DNA of 54,855 nt from a virus: the IMG/VR virus record IMGVR_UViG_3300031280_000001, positions 1 through 54,855 of that record. One strand, given 5' to 3'. The position numbers and the translations under genes are program-made. The notes beneath the pieces were generated by a model. That model made no database searches and had not been told where the DNA came from. It saw nothing but the letters and a program-made list of their open reading frames with translations. Of this stretch, positions 27,050 to 41,080 are shown piece by piece (positions within the stretch are counted from its first letter, which is position 1; every line of letters begins with the position of its first letter).

Positions 27050-27460
27050 TTACAGAAGTTCTTTGAGATCGATATTTCGAAACATGTTTGGACCGGGGTT
27101 CGTTGCCCCGCATCTCCACAAAAAGTCCAACCGGTAGCCAAAAGGGGTGAGGATAAGATCACACACCCGGGCGTTTATTCGGCTCTGGCCTTGGGGGATA
27201 ATACGACGCCGTGCAAAAATGTCTATGCTGAGGAGCATGAAGATATACCGCCGGAAGATTCGTATTTTCCCCCCCTGGTACAGGGGAGTAAGTTACAAGA
27301 TTGTAAGATATGGGGATGAATGTTTTGACAGCATGAGAGTAGGGTATCAGGAGAGGACGAAGCTAATTAACCGGCACAAAGGTTATACAACTAATTCCTC
27401 AAGGCCGCTTCCAGGAAGCAGCTTAGCTAGGAGCCTGAGCCCCTTCGGGGGTTTCAGGTA
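27050..27460 (+). ncRNA. ssrA: Probable circularly permuted tmRNA
   Basis: The 3' tRNA-like half comes first. A T arm at 27096-27112 (CGGGG, loop TTCGTTG, CCCCG) is followed directly by CATCTCC (27113-27119) and an A. The 5' half comes later. GGGGATG at 27312-27318 pairs over 7 bp with CATCTCC (one G-U) and runs into TGTTTTGACAGC, the conserved tmRNA D-loop segment. Further pairing AGCATG (27330-27335) with CATGTT (27086-27091) and GGTATC with GATATT fits helix P2. An intervening segment of about 190 nt joins the halves. Downstream, GAGGA (27353-27357) pairs with TCCTC (27396-27400), possibly part of PK1. An ORF ending QEAA then TAG (27424-27426) is a candidate tag. A UUCG-capped hairpin at 27434-27458 closes the gene. 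Resume codon and pseudoknots are unresolved, and CCA is not encoded. Confidence 0.7.
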
Positions 27461-37473: not shown

Positions 37474-37549
37474 TACGGGAGAGAGGATTTGAACCTCCCC
37501 CTCCGGCTCTTCCGCCGACGCTCTGGCCCATGGTTTAAGCTACTCCCGT
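37474..37549 (-). tRNA. Atypical tRNA with six-base anticodon loop
   Basis: The acceptor ACGGGAG/CTCCCGT is perfect and the T arm has loop TTCAAAT. D arm GCTT/GAGC carries a long loop with GG. The anticodon stem TCGGC/GCCGG leaves only six bases, GGAAGA, without T33. Depending on which base is missing the anticodon is GAA (Phe) or GGA (Ser). It may be non-decoding. Confidence 0.65.
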
Positions 37550-37573: not shown

Positions 37574-37646
37574 CGCTGAAGGAAGGATTTGAACCTACAC
37601 TTTCCAGGATGAAAACCTGACGTCCTACGCGATAGACGATAAGGCC
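37574..37646 (-). tRNA. tRNA-Glu (TTC)-like, acceptor stem does not pair
   Basis: The D arm, anticodon stem TCAGG/CCTGG with loop TTTTCAT, and T loop TTCAAAT are good. The expected 5' strand GGCCTTA does not pair with the 3' strand CTTCAGC, and the T stem has one T-T mismatch. It may be a decayed tRNA or one kept for another use. Confidence 0.6.
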
Positions 37647-37652
37647 ACATAG

Positions 37653-37693
37653 TGCCGGAGTGAGGAATCGAACCCCCATGCCCAGTCTCCGGC
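37653..37693 (-). ncRNA. Minus-strand tRNA-like minihelix, 41 nt
   Basis: GCCGGAG and CTCCGGC form a perfect 7-bp acceptor-like stem. Between them are only nine bases (ACTGGGCAT) and a T arm GGGGG / TTCGATT / CCTCA, followed by A73. No D stem or anticodon arm exists. It lies 6 nt upstream of the Glu-like tRNA. It parallels the plus-strand array but with a 7+5 bp split. Confidence 0.7.
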
Positions 37694-37802
37694 AAAGATC
37701 CCCCGTCAATAGGCTGTGGTTGTCTTAACGGTTGTCCTCTGGTGCATGCAGATCCCCGGGAGAAAGACGGGTCACGTAGCTTACAATGCCTATCATATGT
37801 TG
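37694..37802 (-). other. Non-coding spacer in tRNA operon
   Basis: There is no ORF and no tRNA that folds. CCCG/CGGG and other short stems are present. Some bases resemble tRNA fragments, for example GGATCTGCATGCACC, but no full cloverleaf was found. Confidence 0.5.
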
Positions 37803-37881
37803 TAGCGGGGGTAGGATTCGAACCGTTTATGACGACCTTTGGGATATGAGCCCAACGAGCTACCAACTGCTCTACCCCGCT
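37803..37881 (-). tRNA. Initiator-like tRNA-Met (CAT)
   Basis: The acceptor AGCGGGG/CCCCGCT is paired. The body GTAGAGCAGTTGGTAGCTCG and three G-C pairs (GGG/CCC) beside the loop CTCATAT match bacterial tRNA-fMet. Position 1 is A paired with T72 instead of the unpaired C-A. The variable/T-arm region has about seven extra bases, and the T stem has only two good pairs next to TTCGAAT. Confidence 0.75.
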
Positions 37882-37949: not shown

Positions 37950-37972
37950 TTCATTATTTCTATTGTTTTAAG

Positions 37973-38045
37973 GGTGCCTGGAGAATTTCGAAATCTCGAC
38001 CTTCGGAATCACAACCCGACGCTCTGCCTCTGAGCTACAGACAAC
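37973..38045 (-). tRNA. tRNA-His (GTG)
   Basis: Anticodon stem TCGGG/TCCGA surrounds loop TTGTGAT, with D arm GCTC/GAGC and T loop TTCGAAA. An extra 5' G opposite C73 is the His identity pair. The next position, T1 with C72, is mismatched. Confidence 0.85.
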
Positions 38046-40747: not shown

Positions 40748-40807
40748 TGCCAGTTAACGGGCAGCCTGAAATAATAAGGGCGAAGGGTTCGAATCCCTTT
40801 ACTGGCA
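40748..40807 (+). ncRNA. tRNA-like element A, 60 nt
   Basis: A 7-bp acceptor TGCCAGT/ACTGGCA and T arm AAGGG / TTCGAAT / CCCTT enclose a 28-nt connector containing ACGGGCAGCC. It is shorter than a full tRNA but longer than the other elements. It may be an intermediate form. CGAC follows. Confidence 0.7.
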
Positions 40808-40832: not shown

Positions 40833-41039
40833 ATGAAAGACAAATTTAACTTAAATGGCATTGATTACAAGGTAGTTAATGGTTTAGTTTACAAGCAATC
40901 ACAGGGTATATTAGACCCATGTTACAAAGGTGACAGTAGTGTATTGGATGAGTTTTGCAGAATACATAGCTTAACACTATATCAGAGGCCTAAAGGTGTT
41001 CATGCATACGGTAACCAGCACGGATTACGTACGCAATAG
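40833..41039 (+). CDS. YKV-x-x-GL family protein, 68 aa
   Basis: KDKFNLNGIDYKVVNGLVYK, then DPCYKGDSSVLDEFCRIHSL, is paralogous to the 58-aa gene at 42144 (DFNGRNYKVVNGL, TPCYQGDNVMLDAYC). Two conserved Cys suggest a shared fold. It lies between elements A and B, and its TAG stop ends on the first base of element B. Confidence 0.65.
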   Translation: MKDKFNLNGIDYKVVNGLVYKQSQGILDPCYKGDSSVLDEFCRIHSLTLYQRPKGVHAYGNQHGLRTQ

Positions 41040-41080
41040 CCAGTATGGTATCTGCCTGGGTTCGACTCCCAGGCATAGCA
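41039..41080 (+). ncRNA. tRNA-like minihelix B
   Basis: GCCA / GTATGGTATC bulge / TGCCTGGG - TTCGACT - CCCAGGCA / TAGC-A. The 8-bp T stem is perfect; the outer four pairs have one C-A mismatch. Its first G is the G of the upstream TAG. Confidence 0.7.

Follow-up and report, generated by a model that had tools for sequence, protein, structure and literature searches.

An armless tRNA-like minihelix in a phage tRNA cluster, a candidate RNase P/RNase Z substrate with covarying counterparts in unrelated phages

The window, by which we mean the whole stretch of DNA that was analysed, is a 54,855-base IMG/VR virus record. On its minus strand it carries a tRNA cluster, within which a 41-nt element lies between an initiator-type tRNA-Met and a tRNA-Glu-like gene; an array of other minihelices is found on the plus strand. 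The features are as follows.

37972–38044, minus strand: tRNA-His, head of the same-strand cluster
37802–37881, minus strand: tRNA-Met with an initiator-type GGG/CCC anticodon stem, upstream of the element
37653–37693, minus strand: whole 41-nt minihelix RNA (nt 1 at 37693, nt 72 at 37654, discriminator A73 (N73) at 37653)
37687–37693, minus strand: acceptor stem, 5' strand GCCGGAG, 7/7 pairs with 37654–37660
37678–37686, minus strand: nine-base linker ACTGGGCAT, family consensus ACYGGGYAU
37673–37677, minus strand: T stem, 5' strand GGGGG
37666–37672, minus strand: T loop TTCGATT, closed by G53–C61
37661–37665, minus strand: T stem, 3' strand CCTCA, with A65 opposite G49
37654–37660, minus strand: acceptor stem, 3' strand CTCCGGC
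37582–37637 (to 37648 at widest), minus strand: tRNA-Glu-like gene, downstream of the element; acceptor strands unpaired, Rfam match to model positions 10–63 only
37474–37549, minus strand: another tRNA of the cluster, with a six-base anticodon loop
41039–44126 (from 40749 at widest), plus strand: array of UAUGGUA-type minihelices, eight matches of model R2

Farther along, the cluster includes tRNA-Met, tRNA-Gln and tRNA-Ile. Upstream of the element, the 108-nt gap that separates it from tRNA-Met is no more stably folded than its shuffles (z +1.2). Read by eye, an ATG 3 nt past the minihelix opens a frame of about 33 codons across the tRNA-Glu-like gene. A TATCTTTG box before tRNA-His has a Bacteroidota-like look, which may hint at the host.

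Read along the minus strand from 37693 to 37653, the element is GCCGGAG-ACTGGGCAT-GGGGG-TTCGATT-CCTCA-CTCCGGC-A, an armless tRNA-like minihelix composed of an acceptor stem, a nine-base linker and a T arm. An earlier note on this DNA had placed it at exactly these coordinates and described a perfect 7-bp stem set nine bases apart from a T arm. The acceptor GCCGGAG/CTCCGGC is indeed Watson-Crick paired at 7 of 7 positions, and the linker is nine bases long. The T arm was also rightly recognized, with a canonical loop, but its stem is imperfect: GGGGG/CCTCA forms four pairs (one of them G·U) and has a G49·A65 mismatch at the first pair. The element has a predicted folding energy of −19.9 kcal/mol (z −2.7). 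Eight minihelices are present in the real window; 200 dinucleotide shuffles of its full length contained none, whatever the split.

With tRNAs the element shares the 7-bp acceptor and a TTCRANN T loop closed by G53–C61. The D arm and the anticodon arm are absent, the acceptor being joined to the T arm by no more than nine bases, and the Rfam tRNA model RF00005 had no match at 37653–37693 even at E ≤ 5, its gathering threshold not being reached. The Rfam search likewise found no match of RF01684 (mascRNA/menRNA) at the element. Its 7 + 5 helix positions, 11 of 12 paired, give the 12 stacked helix steps from T loop to 5' end of the minimal RNase P substrate rule. A permuted, two-piece tmRNA was rejected as the identity of the element, both acceptor strands lying within one 41-nt unit. 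Rfam tmRNA_permuted does match elsewhere in the window, at 27058–27426, with 48.6 bits, barely above the cut-off. In relatives of the window, ARAGORN reports permuted (two-piece) tmRNA-like genes in L279 (15876–16344), L286 (2284–2826) and L308 (3723–4244).

The earlier note had named a sequencing error that hides a full tRNA as the finding that would overturn it. Two contigs from other IMG metagenomes, L127 and L128, match the window at 99.98% identity or more and carry the element unchanged. A related phage, G001, whose portal protein is 87% identical to that of the window, carries a diverged ortholog, GCCAGGG ACCGGGTAT GGGGG TTCGACT CCTCA CCTTGGC A, in the same place, about 22 nt past an initiator-type tRNA-Met and upstream of tRNA-Glu. 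Since the same sequence is present in two other metagenomes and the same nine-base gap in the ortholog, this objection was ruled out; a sequencing or assembly error, in favour of which nothing was found, now has a negligible probability. Between G001 and the window three of the seven acceptor pairs (4, 5 and 6) differ, by changes from G–C to A–U, G–C to G–U and A–U to G–C, and all three are still paired, two of them by double change; the linker, the nine-base gap and the G·A are kept. Five portal-based relatives (G002, G010, G058, G067 and G068) gave no good match of covariance model R1, the best named being a weak one in G010 at 21.9 bits.

We then searched IMG/VR with a pattern that fixed just the linker and T loop (ACYGGGYATNNNGGTTCRANNCC) and placed no constraint on the acceptor or the outer T stem. 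The completed scan returned 31 stretches. Merged into loci, these comprise the window phage, G001 and four loci in exact register, L346/L484, L386, L473 and L470/L477. In L346, L386, L470 and L473, six to seven of the seven acceptor pairs form in exact register, two copies (L470 and L473) being without the first pair; we estimate the chance of at least six of seven pairs in one fixed register at about 0.013 per match, taking 6/16 as the pairing chance. These four share their linker with G001 and the window. Three further kinds of match, in L474, L371 and Streptococcus prophages, have a paired acceptor and a 12–13-nt linker that ends in the same bases, and the rest of the 31 are two or three ordinary tRNAs and a few stretches that do not fold. 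Altogether, six to nine distinct family members can be counted.

The G·A at 49–65 is present in all six exact-register copies, though it was absent from the search pattern, and none of the six encodes CCA. In the alignment of the six sequences 97% of pair cells are standard and two-sided changes occur in 9 of 11 pairs, with at least one at every acceptor pair; the outer T-stem pairs covary too. The covariation score of these six sequences is 0.879; shuffling lowers it to 0.233, and sliding the partners to 0.194 or less. Part of the acceptor covariation comes from the choice of members, for which acceptor pairing was used, and a leave-out search is therefore the cleaner test. Model R3, a covariance model built from four unrelated phages (L346, L386, L473 and L470) alone, with the window copy and G001 left out, recovered the window copy (E = 1.1e-8), G001 (1.7e-10), L474 (1.6e-8), L371 (6.5e-8) and a Streptococcus phage (2.8e-5). 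Model R1, whose training set includes the window copy, scores the element at 58.5 bits. Judged by this conservation and covariation, the element is a member of a real, selected family of putative small RNAs in unrelated phages and not a broken tRNA gene, and the family is defined, as far as its aligned members tell, by the linker ACYGGGYAU and the G·A pair at the base of the T stem.

The pattern GCCGGAG...GGTTCGANTCC found mostly anticodon-stem parts of ordinary tRNAs in IMG/VR; among the matches listed for YGGGYAT...GGTTCGA, tRNA-Leu and other tRNAs dominate; and when the element or its core was compared with GenBank phages by BLAST, mainly tRNAs were returned. Matches in Courthouse and Samisti12 are not clean minihelices of the ACYGGGYAU family, and the minihelix-like L183/L221 was dropped as probably lying within a protein frame, as read by eye. 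In the openly accessible literature, subscription journals not being covered, we found no published description of such elements.

A phage tRNA-Leu, L469, identified with ARAGORN, has the same acceptor GCCGGAG/CTCCGGC and has ACTGGGTAT just before its T stem. This match makes it plausible that a tRNA-Leu which lost its D arm, its anticodon arm and half of its variable arm was the source of the element. It is also what speaks for regarding the element as a pseudogene left by the same losses, which we consider very improbable: compensatory acceptor changes between phages are unexpected in a dead remnant, and the same linker recurs with other acceptors in unrelated phages. Whatever its origin, the present element is maintained as such.

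The plus-strand array resembles the element in its 12-step helix, its T loop, the GG of its linker and its place between genes, but its helix is split mostly 5+7 or 6+6 and its linker is a different one, UAUGGUA. The contrast in split with the 7+5 of the element is the one that the earlier note had drawn. R2, the array model, matches at 41039, 41316, 41559, 42073, 42320, 42624, 43162 and 44085 (start positions), and on the element it finds the T arm alone (37662–37676, model positions 20–34, 13.7 bits), as it does in ordinary tRNAs. Conversely, R1 finds only 37653–37693 in the window, with array elements at background (14.4 bits at most). By these model searches the array is a separate minihelix family, neither model recognizing the other. 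The element had been proposed as the ancestor or a parallel form of the array elements. As there is no cross-recognition between two families that are alike in design (linker GG and T loop), they are best seen as parallel forms of one design; for ancestry in either direction we found no support, as there was no intermediate and neither family can be rooted.

The array pattern, GTATGGTA...GGTTCGANTCC, occurs in at least 119 stretches in at least 100 IMG/VR contigs; 84,980 genomes of bacteria and archaea contain it in just 41. Eleven or all of the 12 pairs are formed in 63 of about 99 distinct viral sequences among the matches listed, compared with 7 of 32 cellular ones. By these counts the UAUGGUA minihelix family is widespread between phage genes and rare in cellular genomes. 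In 38 of the 62 copies an ORF ends no more than 20 nt before the minihelix (11% at random positions), and in 13 copies the stop codon shares its third base with the helix, as nt 1. Among perfect 12-step structure matches that are without the TGGTA linker, some of which are parts of ordinary tRNAs, 56 of 76 still have GG.

Several further tRNA-like sequences were observed. The linker of the first array element (40749–40806, plus strand) is 27 nt long, and this element may represent a stage between tRNA and minihelix. At 41039–41080 the window has a single chimeric element, made of the 5' half of a first and the 3' half of a second, and no gene; in the near-identical phage L252 (19620–19934) a small gene is flanked by two elements, which suggests that minihelices act as recombination points for gene cassettes. 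The Streptococcus phages Javan503, 523, 179 and 157 (L486–L489), isolates with sequenced hosts, each have one to three unannotated 7+5 or 6+6 minihelices in the non-coding stretch past a FIG01114733-type gene. The tRNA-like gene at 2246–2337 of L286 (minus strand) lacks a D arm; its anticodon stem and variable arm are long and its anticodon loop is large. Vibrio phage vB_VpS_PG07 has, next to two tRNAs, a tRNA-like sequence that is not annotated (L490, 577–636); a middle part of 26 nt separates its 7-bp acceptor from its T arm, which shares the G·A at 49–65.

What the element does may be approached through the enzymes of tRNA maturation. The RNase P RNA of E. coli finds the correct cutting site in synthetic hairpins of acceptor and T arm, the rule being 12 bp from the T loop to the 5' end, and the phage M3 and C4 RNAs are also matured by RNase P (PMC11143913). 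RNase Z holds the elbow in a clamp and trims precursors that lack CCA, which is added afterwards (PMC4919913), and G18 and G19 of tRNA dock on the T loop (PMC4810234). By analogy with these substrates, and with belief and doubt about evenly balanced, we propose that the element is a minimal RNase P/RNase Z substrate by which a polycistronic phage transcript is divided into its products. The element would be co-transcribed with its neighbours. Its stacked 12-step helix ending in the T loop would set the cutting distance, and the linker GG, present in both the element family and the array family, would dock on the T loop to build a tRNA elbow, the linker standing in for the D loop. From the substrate features and the absence of an encoded CCA we infer excision by host tRNA-maturation enzymes (RNase P and RNase Z), which would separate the flanking tRNA or mRNA products and might leave a stable RNA of about 41–44 nt with added CCA. 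The support comes from the structure, conservation with covariation, the shared linker and the place between genes or tRNAs.

Several observations stand against this role as a processing signal. Strict conservation of nine linker bases is surprising in a mere cutting signal and suggests a specific tertiary fold or partner, the window copy lies among tRNAs that would be processed anyway, and two copies (L470 and L473) lack an acceptor pair, the first. The linker and the tRNA setting suit another explanation, in our view a rather improbable one, that the element is set free by this processing as a stable small RNA and then has its own function. It could for instance be a decoy for host factors that grip a tRNA by its elbow or acceptor, such as RNase P, the CCA enzyme or defence enzymes that target tRNAs. 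That linker and G·A are strictly kept across phages with differing acceptors and surroundings would fit a specific contact, and in the tRNA cluster a processing signal is hardly needed. However, family copies lie mostly between genes, L346, L386, L473 and L474 between same-strand ORFs and L470 shortly before one, as is expected of a processing signal.

The same neighbourhoods bear on a cis-acting leader that controls translation or transcription of the next downstream gene. An ATG lies within about 3 nt of N73 in L470, L473 and L346, and an ORF starts about 15 nt downstream in L386 and G001 (15 nt in G001). We nevertheless think a leader unlikely, since the next feature in the window is a tRNA-like gene and not a clear ORF, and the copies looked at share no downstream gene type.

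In mitochondrial tRNA punctuation, tRNAs that lie between genes are excised by RNase P/Z. The candidate RNase P/RNase Z substrate shares with it tRNA-like units between genes in one transcript, but the phage units are armless minihelices, and their excision is presumed. Closest in anatomy are the synthetic RNase P substrates of the AT1 type, made of the acceptor stem, T stem and T loop of E. coli tRNA-Phe (PMC11143913): in both, acceptor and T arm stack as 12 bp that end in a T loop, with no D or anticodon arm. AT1 is man-made, whereas the element is phage-encoded, has a conserved nine-base linker and a G·A pair, and would, by analogy, be cut. The phage M3 RNA and the antisense C4 RNA (PMC11143913) are likewise phage-encoded non-tRNA RNAs matured by host RNase P; the likeness is one of description, and there is no evidence of common descent. 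Viral tRNA-like structures (e.g. TYMV; PMC4810234) and mascRNA/menRNA (RF01684) share the mimicry of an elbow without a working tRNA, but have other folds or are longer than the element.

The element is a natural, covarying counterpart, in unrelated phages, of the synthetic minimal RNase P substrate, and it is missed by tRNA finders and by Rfam. More tentatively, and with doubt prevailing, we suggest that at least two families of armless tRNA mimics are transcript cut marks of phages, a 'minihelix punctuation' in which host RNase P and RNase Z would excise them; some array cuts would fall inside a stop codon and give non-stop messages, which could explain the tmRNA-like genes that relatives carry themselves. 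If the element is processed as proposed, armless tRNA mimics would serve phages for cutting their messages; such a mitochondria-like device was, for phages, not described in the openly accessible literature searched. Being compact and natural, the element also lets one test the minimum of tRNA structure that the maturation enzymes and the elbow require.
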